A stretch of DNA of 64,000 nt, taken from positions 30,236,358 through 30,300,357 of the forward strand of contig OY987244.1 in assembly GCA_963920765.1 (NCBI GenBank), written 5' to 3'. The notes under the pieces are model-generated. The model saw nothing but the letters and a program-made list of their open reading frames with translations, was not told where the DNA came from and made no database searches. The DNA is from Ulota crispa. Lineage: Eukaryota; Streptophyta; Bryopsida; Orthotrichales; Orthotrichaceae. The position numbers and the translations under genes were made by a program. This document shows positions 1,908 to 53,713 of the stretch, in pieces (within the stretch, counting starts at the first letter, position 1; every line of letters starts with the position of its first letter).

Positions 1908-3544
1908 AACTTACTAACCTTAGCTCATCTTCGAGGATCACATCGTTACAACGCCATCGTTGCCAACCACCACCGCTGCACAATCAATCTCACAATTAAA
2001 AACCTCGTCTCTTCCTTGCAACTAAACCAGATCCTCACGGAGAGGTTTATGAGGACAAGTGCTTGATACAGTTGCTCTTTTGTTGCGATTACTGTGAAAT
2101 CTGTTGCAATGGAGAATCGCACATCCAGAAACAGAACTCAAGTGTGAGGTACTGTGACATGTCGAACCAAAAGGATGGATGTCGAATGTCCAACCACGTG
2201 TAAAACTACTCCTTTGTAGCCGGACGAGCTTCACGAGTAAGCTTAAGGAAGTGCGGACGTTCGTCAGCTCGAGGAGTTGCTTACAGAGAAATGCCCGATG
2301 AGCGATGACGAGGTAATTGAAACCTCCAAACTCCAACCAACGAGGACGACGAAAGCTCGAGAGGGCTTTGAGCAGGAATTTAGGGTTTGTTTGGTGTTTG
2401 CTTAACTTAGACGATTTCGGGTTTTCCTGTTTTTGACATATTATCATTCATCGACGACTCATCACCTTTTCCCTCCAAAATTGAAGAGATCACTTGTGGT
2501 GACCAAGATTTGAGGTCACTTTTGGAGGTGGGGTCAAATTTTGTCCTTTGGACAAAGCACTTCCTCTCACTCCATATGAGGTAAAGACAAAAATCAAGTT
2601 AATTAAGAATAGAAAAAACAAAAGTGATCCTCCACCCGATGTCCGGTGCCTGGTGTGAATGCATTCACCGGACAGACAAAACCATGATGACATGGCAATT
2701 TCCCTTCCATAATCCACCATATGAAACACTAGAGAGGGGCTTTTGTCATGTGGCGTCGGACATCCTGGTCTGAACCGGGCCTTATTAATTCTTGAGCGCA
2801 CATGCCATTTTCACCAAAATCAGGATTTTGGGAGACCTACAACTTTGATGCATCTTATCTCAGTCAATCAGATGATTCACAAATAATGACCATTGAAAAT
2901 AGTGGAAAACCTACTTAAGAAATGGCTTGCAAATTTTGGATACAAATGATCATGGGAGATGTGAGATTACAACATTTGATAAAGCAACATGCAATGACAA
3001 AATCTCATTTTTTGGTAGGTAGATGCTATTTGATGATTTTTGCAAAATTTTATAAGCCCTTGATTCATCTTAAATTTTGTGGGTAGCAAGATTAGATGTG
3101 AACACACACTTGCATATTATTGAAGGTTTTATTTCTTTGTAAGTTGAATTTTAGTGCTTCAATTTGCTGCTGCACGAAAAACAATGACCAACACCATTGG
3201 TGAGGGTTGCCTTGACAAGGATTTAGTACATGCTTGAACCCTTGCTTGTGAATTTCCCGCTACCAAAAAGCCCATGCAAGGAAGCTTGCAATGAGTGTTG
3301 ATCAGTTGTAGCTTGTAAGACATTGCTCGACACCACGCCTTGTATGGTGTTTCACCCAATTACAACTCTTGAGGCACTTCTATAACATTTGGTTTGGCTT
3401 GCCATTACTCCACTTGCATGGACCACTTGAATACTTTGATAATTGTAATTTATACCAAGGTAAAAAAATTAGATCCAATATCTCAAACATGCAACTGAAA
3501 TCTTGTGAGGACATTTTTGATCCCCAAAAGCTTTCAAGGGTTAA

Positions 3545-3768
3545 CCCCTAAACATCCTATAGAATAGTAGATATGTTGTTATATAATTGACATATGCTAT
3601 CAACAAGAAGTTTTAATTTAGGATCCTAAGTAGTTCACTAAAATTGCATTGACCTATGTTTCAACTTCTTTGTTGATCTTAAATTAGTAAAGGTGTGGAT
3701 CCATTCTAAATACAAGAAAATTACCTTGTATGGTATTGGTTGCAAAGGCACTTTCATAAATTTAGGGG
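3545..3768. mobile_element. TTAA-flanked miniature element (piggyBac-type ends), 224 bp
   Basis: TTAA at 3541-3544 and 3769-3772 flank an element that starts CCCCTAAACATCC and ends TTTAGGGG. Non-coding. TTAA duplication plus CCC-starting ends is the hallmark of the piggyBac superfamily. Confidence 0.7.
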
Positions 3769-4737
3769 TTAAAGCTCATGACATGAATTTGATGAACAAA
3801 ACGTTTCATGACAGTGTCATATAAGATCAACTTGCCTTATTTTCCACACCTAAACTTCCTAATAGCACATCTAATTATTGCTTCAATTCTATGATAGCAT
3901 CATATTCCTATGAGTGAATATTTTTTTAAACCATATGTATTGTTGCACTAACAATCATATCTGCTAATATCAAAGGATGTTGATTTACAAACTTGAAAAC
4001 ATAGAGGGATTATGTATAAGAAAAACTTAGGTTTTCAATGTTAAGACTTTTGTTGATATTTTGTTATACAAATTTATGCTATTGTGTGTTCATGAGTACA
4101 CGTACTGATTTAGATCATGATGTACAATCATAACTAAAAATTTATCTATAGTTTAGTAGAACTTCAACCTAGAGTTTTCATTCTACTTTGAGAACTTGGG
4201 GTCAACATCTTTATTACATTGGGACTAGAGAAGTGCAATGGTAATAAAGATATTACAAAATCATGTATGGAAGTGAGAGGGGACAACAAAATTGCAACTT
4301 ACAAATGGTGTTCCAACATGATTCTTGCAAAAACAACATATTTTTGGGGATTTGAATTTTTCAAAATCAATAAGCACAAGTCACCATAGTGATTCAAATG
4401 AAAGCTAACCCTTGATAAATAATCCTTAATACTCCATAAACATTTAATACTTCATTTTGAAAATCCACTAGAAAGTAAGGTGGAAGCACCCATTGTCACC
4501 AATGTTCCATACCCAATCATTAAGGTGTGCTATTTCCACCATGAGCAAGGATAGGTGCTTTGGAATGCTTTTTTATGTCCATTTCAAGGTTGGAGCCACT
4601 CAAATCATGCCACATGTCCCAAAGTGAGGTAAGAAGTAACGAGCTAAAAGTAGTTTGGCTATTGGTGGGATTGCATACACCTAAACATTGGCCATGGGCC
4701 TGGAACACTTTTTGTATAGGGCAATGCCTGAAGAGGA

Positions 4738-9007: not shown

Positions 9008-9660
9008 GTCCTTCTTGACCCGCTCTCTGTCACCGTCTGTTACCTTCTGTCACCTTCTCGCACCTTCTTGAAGCAGCTTCTAAGGTAGGAGCACCCAATT
9101 GCAACACCAGCCGTTCTCCGCCATCTAAAATTAAACCTAAAGTAGAAAGGTTTGCATCCAATCAAAATACGAATTCACCTAGATAAGACACAAATGCACT
9201 CAAATCAGATATGCAAGTTAACAGAAGGGAATAGAAATTGTGTAGGTGGCAATCTTTGATTGGGTGTAACATGCACATGACATGGTCTTGTTGTTGTTGC
9301 TTTTTAAGGGGTTTAGTGTTTACAATAGGTAAGTCTAGGGAGTTGTTTTCAACAATTCAATAATTTATTCATATGATCTTAGAAAATTTCAAAAACAATT
9401 TTCCTTGCATTTGTATCCATTTCTTATCAAGCCCATGCCATCAAATTCTCAGAAGACCCTCCCAATTACTACATCTGAGGTAAGTGTCGCATTTGGGTGC
9501 TTCTACTTTATGGCTGGGCTTTCTTGTACATTAGTTACTTCAATTACTGTGCTCCACACTAAGGTACTGTAGTATGCTCGTAAACCGTCCATCTAAGGGT
9601 TGAAACTGAATTTCGGGGAGGTGAAACTTCTTAAGATAATTTTCAGTAAATTTTCCTTAA

Positions 9661-10274
9661 CCCCTAAACGCCCATATTGTCATATTTGTTAATTTGGGAA
9701 AAATCATACATTTTGGAACTTTTAGAATTTTGATATGAAGGTTTTAGGTGGCCTCCTAAAACCTACACATGTCCTCACCTGAGAGGAGGAATTTGCAAGG
9801 GAAAAAACCTTACTGGCTCAAACTCAATTTGATACCTTTGAATCTGGTTTAAAGTAACTTTTTGGGTTTCAAGTGGAATACAAAGTGGGACACCTATTTT
9901 TCCCAAATTAATGAATATGGTGTTCCATGAGAACGTTTTTTGTCCTAAGGCCCTGAAAAAACATTTAGTACAATAAAAAAAAGACATTTTTTATCTTCTT
10001 CTTTTTTCCAAAGTGATCGTAAACACATGATTCATCATAGAAGGCAAATAACAATCTTATCAAATATGCTCATATTTTTAGGTAACCTAGATTGTGAGAA
10101 AATTCAAAATCATGGTGTTAGGTCCCAAGCTGCCCTTATTGCAATTTTTATGAGGTCGGCATGCACTATTGACTTTTGAAACTTTTAAAAGCAATACTAT
10201 TGGTGCCCATCTATCAAAGCACTGTTGAAGCTATAGTGTGGATAGGCCACAAGCACCCAACAAATGTTTAAGGG
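9661..10274. mobile_element. Element D (TTAA-flanked, piggyBac-type ends) inside E
   Basis: TTAA at 9657-9660 and 10275-10278; ends CCCCTAAACG and GTTTAAGGG. Removing the B insertion (9676-9928) leaves 361 bp, the same length as the uninterrupted D copy at 18636-18996. The matching empty site in the other E copy is CCTTGAAAGAC at 37397-37405, so TTAA was the target (now TTGA there). Confidence 0.85.
9676..9925. mobile_element. Family B MITE nested in D
   Basis: Ends GTCATATTTGTTAATTTGGG and CCCAAATTAATGAATATGG are inverted relative to each other. CAT/CCAT repeats at the borders (9671-9675 and 9925-9928) look like a target duplication. Interior CCTCACCTGAGAGGAGGAAT is typical of the family. 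Confidence 0.8.
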
Positions 10275-10574
10275 TTAAAAGACAAGAGAAATTGGCATCT
10301 ATCCCAAGTTTTTTCATATTTTATGGAGCTTTGTGGAATTAGTTATGAAATTTTGAAGTGGAAAGGTCATAGGTCTCTAAAACCGCCCACCTCTTCAAAT
10401 GTACGTCCCATGCACATTGTTGAAAAGCTATGAATAAGAGCATGTACTAGTAGAGTACATTTGGGAAGGTGAGCGGTTTTAGAGCATGAGCGGAATATGA
10501 GCAGAATACCTTAGTAACATTAACTTGCACTAATTCAAGAGTTAAGTGAATTTGCAAGGACCATGAATAAAATA

Positions 10575-18630: not shown

Positions 18631-18635
18631 TTTAA

Positions 18636-18996
18636 CCCTTAAATGTTTGCTGCGTGGTCGTGGCTTGCCCACACTATAGCTTCAACAATGTTTTGGTTGA
18701 TGAGCACCAAGAGTATTGCTTCTAAAAGTTACAAAAGTCAATAGTGCATGCTGACCTAATGAAGATTGCAATAAGGGCAGCTTGGGACCTAATACCATGA
18801 TTTTGAATTTTTTCACAATTTGGGTTACCTAAAAATATGAGAATATTTGATAAGATTGTTATTTGCCTTCTATGATGGATCATGTGTTTACGGTCACTTT
18901 AGAAAAAACAAACAAATGAAAAACGAGTTTTTTCTATTGTACAAAATGTTTTTTCAGGGCCATAGGACGAAAAACATCCTCATGGACGTTTAGGGG
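18636..18996. mobile_element. Element D, uninterrupted copy, 361 bp
   Basis: TTAA at 18632-18635 and 18997-19000; ends CCCTTAAATGTTTG and CGTTTAGGGG. Inverted relative to the 9661 copy, with shared interior GGGACCTAATACCATGATTT and TTTTTCAGGGCCATAGGACG. Confidence 0.82.
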
Positions 18997-19267
18997 TTAA
19001 GAGTATCACCACTTGTCCTCTAAAATAGATGGCTTGTTGCCACCTGCTTGCAGAATTGCCCCACCAATCTTGCATAATGGATGAATTTGTTAAGAGGCCA
19101 AGCCAAAAGCCTTTGGTGGCTTGCAAAATTGGGCTCTTTTGCAAGCCAAAGGTCGACTTGCAAACTGGCTTGCAAATTACATGAGATAAGCATTTTTTGC
19201 ACTTTTCTAGCAAACATGGACTTTATCCGTGAATGTGGGCGTAGTCAAATGGGTGGAGATGGTCACT

Positions 19268-26122: not shown

Positions 26123-26126
26123 TTAA

Positions 26127-27050
26127 CCCCTAAAGCACTAAGCTCAAATTTTCACCAAAACTTCTCCAAAACTGCCATTTCTAGTACAAGTATCAAATTT
26201 TAGAAAGAATTTTTTTGACAAATGTAACCATAAGATCTTGTACTAAACTGGTATAAAAAGATGTGAAAAAAAAATCAAGAGTTCTCACCCTGTAAGTTGT
26301 TAGATATTTAAGTTTGAATTAACAAAAAGTCATTTTTTGTCTTTGCAAAAATCCAGGCAGCTACACTTCACAAGGTCATATTTGTATGAAAAAAACTCCA
26401 AAATGGTTGTGACTTTTTGGATTTATTCTTCAAAGCAAGTTAAGTACACACTTGAAAATGTTCAAATCATTTGGAATTGCAAAACACATGGAAAAACAAT
26501 AGTAAGTAATAAGAAGTAGAGAATGATTCAAACCACTTAATTGTTACAAACTGAATTATGGAAATGAAAATTCCAATCCCAATGGTTATAACGTTGTGAT
26601 AAATAATCTACATCCTTTGGTTTTGTTTTGTTTTCTAAAACATTGAAAATTGAGTAAGTTAACGAACTTCAAAGTTTATTTTAGAGTAGAGAACCCATAA
26701 TTGTCCGCAAACAAAATCTCCTCATAACTTTCATCTCATTGCTAAAAATGGAATGATTCAGAGCTTTCTATGTATATTTAAATCTGAAGAACCGGTTTCA
26801 AAAAAACAAATCCTAAAAATGTAATTTTTAAGGAATTCTTTTGACGGCCCGTCAAGCAAAGAAAACAACATATCATGCAATAACTTTTGAATCATGAAGT
26901 CAAAAGTTATGAAAATTGTTGAGCCTTAAAGCTACTCCTTGAACACACCATGTGTGAAAATTTCAAAGAAAAAAAAGGTGAAAATCCTATTGATATTGAG
27001 CTGCCCAAAATTGCTATGTAGCCAAAAAAGGGTGTTGAGGGCTTTAGGGG
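26127..27050. mobile_element. Element C, 924 bp, TTAA-flanked
   Basis: TTAA at 26123-26126 and 27051-27054; ends CCCCTAAAGC and GCTTTAGGGG are perfect inverted repeats. Interior TCATAACTTTCATCTCATT and GGGCAG-like block are shared with the other C copies. No transposase. Confidence 0.85.
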
Positions 27051-27054
27051 TTAA

Positions 27055-29152: not shown

Positions 29153-29156
29153 TTAA

Positions 29157-29243
29157 CCCTTGAGCGCCTAGATTTTCAAAACAAGACAGGATCGCGGACT
29201 GTTTTGGTTGTGGACCGTTTTGGTCTGCTTAGGCGCTCAAGGG
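29157..29243. mobile_element. Tiny TTAA-flanked element, 87 bp, sharing a TTAA with its neighbour
   Basis: TTAA at 29153-29156 and 29244-29247; ends CCCTTGAGCGCCTA and TAGGCGCTCAAGGG, a near-perfect 14-bp inverted repeat. Confidence 0.75.
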
Positions 29244-29508
29244 TTAAGTCCACATAGCTACGTATTAGTTTCTCATTAAAAACAACTATTGTAACATAAG
29301 AAGGCTACAAAAGATATTGCTTGATCAACTAATTTCAAGATAATTTGATTTCAACAATCAAAAAGATTCTTTTAATAGTTATTGAATTTCCTATGTAAGT
29401 TATAAACATATGAATGTGTTATATATAAGCTTGATGGTAAATGGTCCTAACAATTTTTTTGCTTGAAGGTGGCTTCTATTGTTGAGGTTCATCCTAACTT
29501 TTTTAAGG

Positions 29509-32328: not shown

Positions 32329-32396
32329 TAATTGTTTTCTTCTTGATCCTTAATTATACAAGATTCTTATGCTTTTAGATTTGTGACTACACTTAA

Positions 32397-32635
32397 CCCC
32401 TAAAGGATGTTGCCTACCAAATCTATTGTTTGTATTTGTACAAGAATCATTTAGTACTTAAAGAAATGACTATATGACAAATGTTAAAAATTCCCCAAAA
32501 AATCCTAGTTAACAAGTAGTGTATCTATGACTTGCTTTGAAACTTACAACTCCAATAAGGTTCATGTGCTATCCAAATACCCCATCCGTATACAACTTGG
32601 GAGTCCGTATACAAAACAACAACATCTTTTAGGGG
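32397..32635. mobile_element. TTAA-flanked miniature element, 239 bp
   Basis: TTAA at 32393-32396 and 32636-32639; ends CCCCTAAAGGATGTTG and CAACATCTTTTAGGGG match at 15 of 16 positions. Confidence 0.85.
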
Positions 32636-33488
32636 TTAAACATGTTGTGTTTATGACAAAATTTGTCCTATTTATGGCAATGTTTGTTTCTCAACCCTAT
32701 CACAATCCTCAAGTGAGCAACCAAAATAGTGGCAACTTCGATAAGCTATAACTTGTGATTCACAACTTAAATCCTCACCTTTTGTGGATCCATACACTTA
32801 CGATTTTATTAACTTACAACAACATCAAGCTTGCCATCCTTTTTGTTCTATGCTCCTGAGAGTTTAGTGCTCAAAACTTCTTCCAATCTTTGTACCGAGT
32901 CTTTCACAAGGCTAGAGAAGTCATTTCTAATGTCTTTATTCTTCAGGCTACCTTATCATGGGCAAATTCAATTTGGAAAAAATGTCACGTGGCAATTTAA
33001 GAGCAATACAGTCCACTTTGGAATTTTGTAACTAATTCAAAATTAATTTGGAAACGTTATAAGAAAGTGGATTAAATATGGATTTTACTTATCTTTCAAA
33101 GAAATTATTCAAAAATAATTTTGAATTCAAAAAGCCCTCTTCAAACCTAGTTACGATAACTAAAAAGAAATGCCATGTAAAACTATTTAAATTACGAAAA
33201 ATGTCTAAACAATTTTAATTATTTCTCGTTAAATCTTGTAGAAACCTTTCACTATCATTTTCAACTCAAGTTTTGTATGAGTTGGCAAACTCCTTGGCAT
33301 TTATATGGTAAAACAGTGTGCCAAGTTCAATACATACCAAGGATGTAATGAAATAAGAAATTTAGGTTCCCAAGCCAGCAATCAAATGACATTGGATAAT
33401 TCAAACCAATGTAAATTTTAGTTCTAAGGTAATGAACTAGTAAGTAAATAATTACAGAGAAAATAAAGCAAAAAGCTTTTGGAGTTAA

Positions 33489-37079: not shown

Positions 37080-40000
37080 TTAAATAAGAGAATCCGCCTC
37101 TCCCTTCTTGAGAACAGATGAAACGCCCAAAGGCGAGTTGTCCACAGGATGGTTGGCGTTGTCTCTTGGGGGAAGAATACAGCACTCCGCGAATTCACGA
37201 CCGTTGAATGTGTACGAATATGGCAAGGCTGTCAGGATCTGCAATGGCCAAGACCAATTTGAAACTTTAGAAAAAAAACACAAAATCCTTGTAAAGACCA
37301 TGACTAAGGTAGGAAGCTCATAAAACCGACCATCTATGGGGCTGAGAATGAATTTTGGGGAGGTGAAACTTTTTGAAATATTTTTCAGTAAATTTTCCTT
37401 GAAAGACCAGAGGAAATGGCATTTAACCCAAGTTGTTTCATATTTTTGGAGTTTTGTGAAATTAGTTATGAAATTTTGAAGTTGAAGTGGCATAGGGCTC
37501 TAAAACCGTCCACCTCCTCAAATGTACTCTCCTTGTACGTTGTTGAAGCCTATAAAAAACAACATGTACAAAAGGCGTATATTTGAGAAGGTGGACGGTT
37601 TCAGAGCCTCCTACCTTAGTTCTGAACTCTCTCAGTAACCCATTTACCAAGCAGGTAGAGGATACTAAAAACATCAAAAATCTGACCCACTTTGTAATTG
37701 CATAAGAAACTTATTTAGTGATAATTTCTTTGTTGATCTCAACAGATTTTGCACTGGATTCAAGGATTCTCTCCACAGCTCTACACTGATCTCACAAAGA
37801 CTACATTCCTGTTTGTTACTTAACCCCCTCAGAGTGACTCGTTAGAGGGAGAGTGTAGATTTTGAGCTTTCAAGGCCTTGTAAAGAACTTGAACAGAAAA
37901 TCTTCATTTTTTCAAACTTTTCATTTCCTCTAATTAAAACACGAATTGATTCACAACCTTGTAGAAAAATGATTGTGCATCTAGTGAGTACGCATATGAT
38001 ATTACTGAATAGTACACATAAGGAAACTTTTACATTACACTTGAATGAATGAAATCTAGTGAACACAACAGTGGCAACAAACTTGTAAATCTGTTTTGTA
38101 ATCCAAATATTGAACAATGGCACTCTTTAGGATGAAAATTCTGAAAGTGACGCAAACGGCACCCTCAAGCTTGTTAACCCTTTAACAGTCATGCTCTTAG
38201 GATGTATGACTAGCAGTATTTCTAACTTTTTTTGGGTGGACAACTTCAAGACCATGCCAAACCAAATTCTAAGACAAGGATTACAATTCCAACCGTACCA
38301 ATGTATGCATTGGATTGACTATGTTACGCATCAAATTTTAAGATTAATCTATCATCCACTTTCAAAGATATTTTTTGATTTGCTTTGCGGATTTTAGTAA
38401 ATACTTTGTGGATAAATGTACATCAACCCAAATGTGACATATGAGCCGTTAAAAAGGTTAACAAGACAGGATAGGATTTGGTTAATACCTGCAGCCGAAG
38501 CATTTCTAGGTCTGAGTAACCAGCAAGATGGGAGATGAGGCAGCGCAGGACATTGCCATGTGCCACAAGGAACACGTTGCAACCTTCTTGCAGGAGCGGT
38601 TCAATAGTTGCTTTAAAAAAGCCAACGGACCTTGTGTACGTGTCCTACGTGGACAAACATTTTCCACGTCACAATCAGTGGAGCTCAGTTAAAGGTAAGC
38701 ATCGGCATGGAAACAACGGCATGTTTAGTGTCTGCAAAGCAAGAGAGGAGGCTCTAGTATTGGTCTCACTTGTAAGCTCTCTCCATTGGGAGGCCTCGTA
38801 TCATAGCTTCGTCGCCACTTTGTCACCGTCTCCTCTCCAAACTCTGCCACAGCTGCTGCTTTGTTCAAACCCTGCAATGGGAGACATCCTGTTGCCTTCA
38901 GAGCATAATGGCTGTCCTAACAATCTTGAATGGACAACCTCGCTGTTTTGAGAGCGTAAAACAATGAGTCATGGGTGGTGAGCCAAGATTCCGTGAACAG
39001 GAAAGAACCAATTCTTAACTCAATGGAAAAACCAAAGGGAAGATTTCGTGGATACCCCTAAAGTTTGCGATATTTTCATAGATACCCCTAAAGTTTGCGA
39101 TATTTTCATAGATACCCCTGCTTTTTCAGAAATTTCACAAATACCCTTGGACCATAATTTTTAGGCATTTATTTGTTGTGCTTGTACTTCCTTCATGACC
39201 AATGTTGAAGAAGGGAATGTAATGAAACAAGAAAGGAGCAACATGTACAAAAAGGAGGAAGAAGGGAAGTGGCATGCACAACAAAACAAACGCCTGAAAT
39301 TTTTGGTCCAAGGGTATTTGTGAAAGTTCTGAAAAAGCAGGGTTATCTATGAAATTATTGCAAACTTCAAAGGTATCCATGAAATTTTTCCAAAACCAGA
39401 AAGGCAAAACCAAAAAGGCAGTAAGTTTTTCAATAGATGAAAGTTTAAAATGCACAATTATAGGGCCCTTTGTACAGGTTATAGGTGAAATTTAGTAATC
39501 TGGCAAAAAATCTAGGCTCACGGCTTACGGTATAGCATTCCCCATTCATGAATGACCTATACACCATCCTCCAGAGCTTTATTATTGTTTGTGTGCAAAG
39601 ATACTTCATTGGTCCTGCTAAGTCTCCATCCATTTGCATGTTTCCAATTCCTCTCCACTATTTTCATTAGTCTTACCTAACTTAGTAAAAAAATAAGGTT
39701 TTTTTTATGTTTGTCATGAAAAGTGTGTCACCGAAATTTTGTGACTGGTCAATGTGACCACAAACACACTTAACACCTCCCCTCTCACAAACAATTACAA
39801 TACAAAATAGAAATGTATTATGGTGCAGCATTGCACTGTGAACAAAGCTGCAAGATTCTACTAGGTTTCTACCAGCAGGTTTTGCAATTTGCTCCCTCAT
39901 AGCATTACATAAGCTAATATGGTAGTACTTCCCAAAACAATGGACTTCCAACTGATTCAAAAATACTATGAACTTAGCCTTGTTGAGATAAGAAAATGAA

Positions 40001-52650: not shown

Positions 52651-53713
52651 AACGTCATATTCATTAAATTGGGAATTTTGTAACATTTTGGGTTTAAGGT
52701 GATCACCTTAACTTCTAAAGGCTTAAGCCCTTTCTTTCAATGAAAGTCCTTGTTAACTGTCACTTTGGGGGGAATGAGTAAAAAAGTAGGAAATAAAGTT
52801 TGTTTTGCAAATCCAACTGGAAGATCTTGCCTTAAACTAGAAGAGGTACTTGTGGGAAAAAATCAAGTCATTCTAGATGGAGAGGAGCAAGATATTTACA
52901 TCTGAAGTAGAAAAAAAAGGTTTTTTTTGTACTATCCAAAAAATTCAAAGGCCTTTGACCACCTTTACATGAAAAAAATTACTCTACACAAAGTTGAAGT
53001 TTATTTTTTCCATGTAGAAGACCAAGTTAGGTATGTGTAGGAGAATTTTCAAATCAATTGGAACTACACAACACATGGGAAAAGTTAGTAAGTAAAAAGA
53101 AGTAGAGAATGAGTCAAAACACTAAATTGTTAAGAATTTAATAATGGAAATGACAAATGCAAATCCCAACAGTTGTAATGTTGTAATAAACAATCTACTT
53201 CTTAGGTTTAGTTTTTTTTCCAAAATATTGAAAATTGTGGAAAATAAAGGACTTTAAAGTTTATTTTAGAGTAGAGAATCCATAACTGCCCACAAACTAA
53301 AACATCTCATAACTTTTATCTCATCAATTGAAGTTGAATGATTCAAAGCTTCCCACATATGAAAAAATCTAAAGAACCAATTTCAGATTTCTATTTTTAG
53401 AAAATTCAATTTTTTAAGAAGTTTTTGGGCTATCTGGATTGCCCTCCCTCCCCGAGTAGCAAAAATTCTTGCATAACTTCTTTGTCAAATGTCAAAAGGA
53501 AGAAAATATTAGATGTCCGCGTAGGTTTTGGGATTCCCCACCTTCAATAAAAGTTTAAAAAATTTACAAAAACTACATTAGCTATAGGTACATGCCCGAA
53601 ATCCATTTGTCCCTTGGGGGGATAGCTGGGCCTTTAGGGATTAAACCAAGCATTAGGTTAAGGTAAAGTACAACTTGGGAATTTGGTTTTCCCAATTGAA
53701 TGAATATGGCATT
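52651..53713. mobile_element. Family B element split by element C
   Basis: Left AACGTCATATTCATTAAATT to 52707; right half from 53645, ending CCCAATTGAATGAATATGGC. The two halves rejoin across the C insertion at TTAA. Confidence 0.8.
52712..53640. mobile_element. Element C, 929 bp, TTAA-flanked, nested in B
   Basis: TTAA at 52708-52711 and 53641-53644; ends CTTCTAAAGGC and GCCTTTAGGGA. Reverse orientation relative to 56906; the shared interior includes a block of CCCCTCC/GGGGGG. Confidence 0.85.

Follow-up and report, generated by a model that had tools for sequence, protein, structure and literature searches.

Miniature inverted-repeat elements (MITEs) of the piggyBac type duplicate TTAA, and the same four bases are also duplicated by the superfamilies Kolobok and Sola3. 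In the published cycle, excision by the piggyBac transposase leaves TTAA overhangs on the element, and the enzyme then joins the element into an unpaired TTAA (PMC7351741); in animals TTAA and CCCTT are described as the commonest signs of piggyBac elements (PMC10813416). PiggyBac is listed among seven MITE superfamilies of angiosperms (PMC10004981), and a fern table gives 1230 PiggyBac copies with an entry of 0.00% (PMC6890710). For bryophytes, no report of piggyBac elements could be recognised by title or start of abstract among the matches listed, a search in which subscription journals are thinly covered; in a moss paper (PMC10619864), "piggybacking" is used in another sense.

Here, we describe a nest of three short elements, E, D and B, in a window of 64,000 nucleotides from Ulota crispa (contig OY987244.1, 30,236,358 to 30,300,357). 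D is best read as belonging to a known kind, the piggyBac-type MITEs, here in a green plant. It is like the piggyBac superfamily (PF13843; T. ni transposase 6x67) in its TTAA on both sides and its CCC-initial termini, and transposases of this superfamily occur in the same genome, but D itself codes for nothing and its host is a green plant. With the piggyBac-type MITEs of angiosperms it shares a short length, terminal repeats and the duplication of TTAA, and it differs from the angiosperm case in that transposase genes plus element ends are present in the same genome. The features, in window coordinates, are as follows.

9562..10511, plus strand: element E, the host of D; a MITE with termini AGGTA../..TACCT and a length of about 310 bp where nothing interrupts it
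9657..10278, plus strand: element D in the nest, TTAA included, interrupted by B, with CCCCTAAACGCCC and CCCTTAAACATTT as its termini
9657-9660 and 10275-10278: left and right TTAA sites of D in the nest
9672..9675, no strand: CCAT duplicated by B (4 bp), left copy
9676..9924, plus strand: element B, 249 bp, within D, family termini AACACCATATT, left end in the nest ATTGTCATATT
9925..9928, no strand: CCAT duplicated by B (4 bp), right copy
18632..19000, minus strand: uninterrupted copy of D, TTAA to TTAA, with 361 bp between the TTAAs (18636-18996)
37305..37618, plus strand: uninterrupted copy of E, TA to TA, the slot reading TTGA

The initial annotation had proposed three layers, E over D over B, and both the coordinates and an alignment with 37305-37622 bear this out. 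The nest copy of E is bordered by TA at 9560-9561 and 10512-10513, as read directly from the sequence, and it contains a single break, between TTTTCC and AAGAC, after which the alignment resumes directly behind the TTAA, exactly where it had been said to. An uninterrupted E copy does lie at the place given for it, 37305-37622, except that its right limit is 37618 when measured from TA to TA. Once B and one CCAT, 253 bp together, are taken out, the TTAAs of the nest copy of D are 361 bp apart, which is indeed the length of the copy at 18636-18996, and the two copies are 88% identical over the aligned stretch. Sequence searches of the genome returned at least 51 matches for D, 77 for E and 50 for B, numbers that are lower bounds, with 40 candidates scored per search; because the three families have such high copy numbers chance is excluded, and the nest is confirmed as real. 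The order of insertion, E, then D, then B, which had originally been read from sequence alone, is given by the nesting. Divergences from the family consensus, with each nest copy counted in its own consensus, amount to 15% for E, 7% for D and 7% for B; they agree with this order and fit E as the oldest without separating D from B, and B is placed later than D because of the nesting.

The explanation that we favour, with a probability of about 0.88, is that D is a non-autonomous piggyBac-type MITE which was mobilised into a TTAA within an older E, with B arriving later. A piggyBac transposase made elsewhere in the genome would cut out a copy of D, and the excised copy would be joined into a TTAA inside E; D would thus be bordered by TTAA on both sides because it was joined into a TTAA. 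A different MITE, B, would later have landed in D, duplicating four bases of no fixed sequence. That D was moved by a transposase of the piggyBac superfamily is probable, and in outcome D agrees with the published piggyBac cycle. The E slot reads TTGA in most copies, and for this reason we infer the TTAA target of the nest event: the E copy concerned would have mutated from TTGA to TTAA before D was inserted.

Duplication of a TTAA target by D is seen both in its end counts and in paralogous empty sites. Using fuzzy end probes that did not require TTAA, this tetranucleotide was found outside 28 of 31 left ends and 24 of 27 right ends genome-wide, as expected if D copies in general are bounded by it, and among exact 22-base ends of D 30 of 38 had an exact TTAA (about 28 expected at 7% divergence per base). 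A separate scan of 44 D matches (31 with both ends, 25 of them unique) worked with a pattern that itself required TTAA and was therefore given no weight as evidence on the target. The fetched copies have CCC-initial terminal repeats, CCCCTAAACGCCC and CCCTTAAACGTCC, and the element has the properties of a MITE, namely a length of 361 bp, inverted ends, many copies (at least 40 scored places) and no room for a transposase. In the window, 20 ends of the form TTAACCCYTNA were observed versus a mean of 0.66 and a maximum of 3 in 50 first-order Markov sequences. Facing pairs of such ends at 3541-3772, 26123-27054, 29153-29247 and 32393-32639, with a spacing of 95 to 932 bp, are possibly other TTAA-type MITEs. 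At another place (L034:1501-2250), two elements of the D family stand back to back with one TTAA in common.

Paralogous empty sites were found for the nest and for loci L007, L005, L043 and L044. That of L043 lies in the window itself (53641-53713), with one TTAA and 94.5% identity over 73 bases, two of the three L043 rows being off by one base. TTAA is read in 9 of 17 rows for L005 and in one of five for L044, the rest of the latter differing by one or two letters, and the single relative of L032 reads ATAA. Some of these rows are one place reached via overlapping loci (L002/L019/window, L004/L021 and L049/window), and the rows of L034, being neighbouring D copies, are uninformative. Empty sites with a single TTAA rule out that the TTAA is a part of D and not a duplication. 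The E copy at 37305 had been taken as an empty site proving TTAA targeting; it reads TTGA and therefore fixes the insertion point, but does not establish which four letters were targeted.

In the sequence alignments, six copies of E are interrupted at this slot, each by an element of a different length.

Window nest: 369 bp, B removed
L007: insert of 375 bp
L104+L111: insert of 911 bp, four-letter sites included
L105: insert of 390 bp, four-letter sites included
L106: insert of 350 bp, four-letter sites included
L107+L112: insert of 653 bp, four-letter sites included

TTAA is found at 11 of the 12 sides of these slots, the lone TTGA being the right side of L105, and the right side of L104+L111 runs TTAA-GACAAG, two bases short of E. 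When the left flank of E with a TTNACCC end behind it was used as a search pattern, 28 places matched, versus 1 in the control; their slot letters are TTAA in 17, TTGA in 8 and TTCA in 3. The count of six is a lower bound, comprising the window and L007, which were already known, and the four places confirmed as E among seven that were read (L104-L110). L108, which matches E over 29 bases only, was left out, and L109 and L110, the sole TTGA places followed by CCC, gave no match to E; six further places, with TTGA and no CCC, are probably uninterrupted E variants. In the E copy of L104, a second TTAA-type end occurs (L104:61) where the consensus of E reads CTAA, one letter off TTAA.

Six insertions have thus accumulated in a slot that mostly reads TTGA. 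Among 987 uninterrupted E copies whose flanks match exactly, the 100 listed, all from contig 1, have TTGA in 91, TTCA in 6 and TTAA in 3 cases; of 38 rows of slot relatives, 32 read TTGA, 2 TTAA (both in L066) and 4 otherwise. The slot may then have been hit repeatedly as a near-cognate TTGA, with the elements rewriting it by their own TTAA overhang, which we consider rather unlikely. L105, whose two sides differ (TTAA and TTGA), would suit such a process, as would the four-nucleotide TTAA overhang carried by piggyBac (PMC7351741) and the roughly 2% of integrations that take place at other sites (PMC6651600, citing Li et al. 2013). However, these noncanonical sites are given as mostly CTAA/TTAG and ATAA/TTAT (PMC6651600), and independent repair of both sides should leave TTGA at about half of the sides, whereas nearly all are TTAA; one altered base in 48 side bases is within what decay gives. 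About 32 TTAA-state slots have exact flanks, a number extrapolated as 2 plus 3% of 987, and 2 of them are filled; about 0.6 would be expected at a rough TTAA occupancy of 2% in the window (P = 0.14), so that there is no clear excess and the near-cognate reading is not forced. If it were true, old insertions would only look like TTAA targets, and L105 would be a half-converted case. One old repeat offering the same four bases to six elements amounts to a natural record of how targets are chosen on an evolutionary timescale, and the strictness for TTAA becomes testable with sister accessions.

Since TTAA by itself cannot separate piggyBac from Kolobok or Sola3, D could also stem from another TTAA-duplicating superfamily, though we regard this as quite improbable. 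CCC-initial ends are the norm for piggyBac in animals, according to PMC10813416, and piggyBac transposases are abundant in this genome, with 120 matches to PF13843, some being fragments of one copy; the same profile had no match in 14 control genomes, a weak control as this set need not include eukaryotes. At L101, an open frame of 476 amino acids matches PF13843 at 8e-60 and the solved structure of a piggyBac transposase, 6x67, at 4e-20. The latter alignment takes in the DE and CDN motifs and two of the three catalytic positions, and the third catalytic aspartate lies beyond it. Two piggyBac copies (C3 and C10) align over 5029 columns with 90% identity; the aligned part begins with TTAACCCCTCATCGCC in one and TTCACCCCTCATTGCC in the second, and closes with GGCAATGAAGGGTTAA in both. 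This long element, of about 5.0 kb compared to 2472 bp for a "well-defined" piggyBac (PMC10813416), bears a transposase and, like D, has one CCCCT.. end and one CCCTT.. end, and the pattern common to both is CCCYTNANNG, in which the fourth base is C on one side and T on the other. Both the transposases and the ends of the long element back the assignment of D to piggyBac that had been made at the outset.

Ends of the TTAACCCYTNANNG type were present in four of 11 transposase loci (L009, L018, L014 with TTAACCCTTCACCGCC and L101 with TTAACCCTTTAGCGACC) and absent from seven, the loci L009-L018 spanning only 1,500 bases past the domain. None of the transposase loci scanned held an autonomous element with the exact ends of D, the ends being similar and not equal, and D showed no similarity beyond chance to ten transposase loci out of the 120 matches. 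Similar short ends are numerous: one end pattern has 3541 matches in the genome, and its reversed control has none. These thousands of ends, together with the transposase genes, document a piggyBac-type load in a green plant.

It is highly improbable that E and D form one composite copied as a unit, such that the repeated nest would go back to a single event. The E copies of the nest and L007 do fall in one clade of four with a support of 1.0, but the same clade includes L039 and L042, which are empty and read TTGA. Moreover, the E parts of the nest and L007 are 83% identical while their D parts are only 70% identical, and the L007 element forms its own subfamily, distinct from that of the nest D, 39 of its 40 scored places being other copies with 82-89% identity. 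For L007, this identity gap and the separate subfamily rule the composite out, and the four further slot insertions differ in length, the sole basis on which they were judged. A first tree of E, in which L007 and the nest were sisters with a support of 1.0, was discarded because closer E copies were added, giving the clade of four.

Even less tenable, with hardly any probability left to it, is a Tc1/mariner-like D that duplicates the 2 bp TA, has the termini ACCC..GGGT and sits in T-TA-A by chance. TTAACCC..GGGTTAA is identical under the TA and TTAA models, and E itself has TA ends, but a TA model leaves the outer T and A free. Of 58 D ends, however, 56 have T at position -4, with no fixed base farther out, and this fixed outer T rules the TA model out.

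The other two families of the nest follow different rules. Stowaway elements, which are Tc1/mariner-like MITEs, have the ends CTCCCTCC. E resembles them in having TA on both sides and no longer duplication, and differs in its own ends, AGGTAGGAGGC; the Stowaway ends were looked for in E and not found. Of 29 E copies, 28 have TA at both borders (the left side of L073 is GA), where TA was part of the search word with three mismatches allowed and one of 30 loci, having no end pair, was dropped. In these 29 copies, no repeat longer than TA was found in the flanks except single chance matches, as in Tc1/mariner-like MITEs. B makes a 4-bp duplication of varying sequence, and in an alignment of 21 rows read by eye, 20 of them complete on both sides, the repeats were perfect in 14 of the 20. 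Among 98 TTAACCCYTAAR ends, five adjoin an E-type end, with GGTAG following the TTAA (L005, L029, L045, L046 and L111), and TA elements and TTAA elements therefore share sites, either by E going into the TA of a TTAA or by D going into a TTAA at the border of E.

Other genes were also noticed. Light-harvesting proteins had 56 matches in the genome, and of the ten top-scoring chlorophyll a/b-binding matches, eight form a gene cluster spanning about 0.4 Mb on contig 4 (G000:C4:21391382-21771811). An LHCII protein scored 447 bits with 8htu and 7xqp, structures from the moss Physcomitrium, compared to 429.6 bits with 8c29, and 9vfj_2 came out higher through summing over its repeated domains. Together with the At5g02240 relative named below, these matches indicate a green plant that is probably a bryophyte. 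In the window, an open frame on the minus strand at 7835-8737 matches Arabidopsis At5g02240 (1xq6, 2.1e-112).
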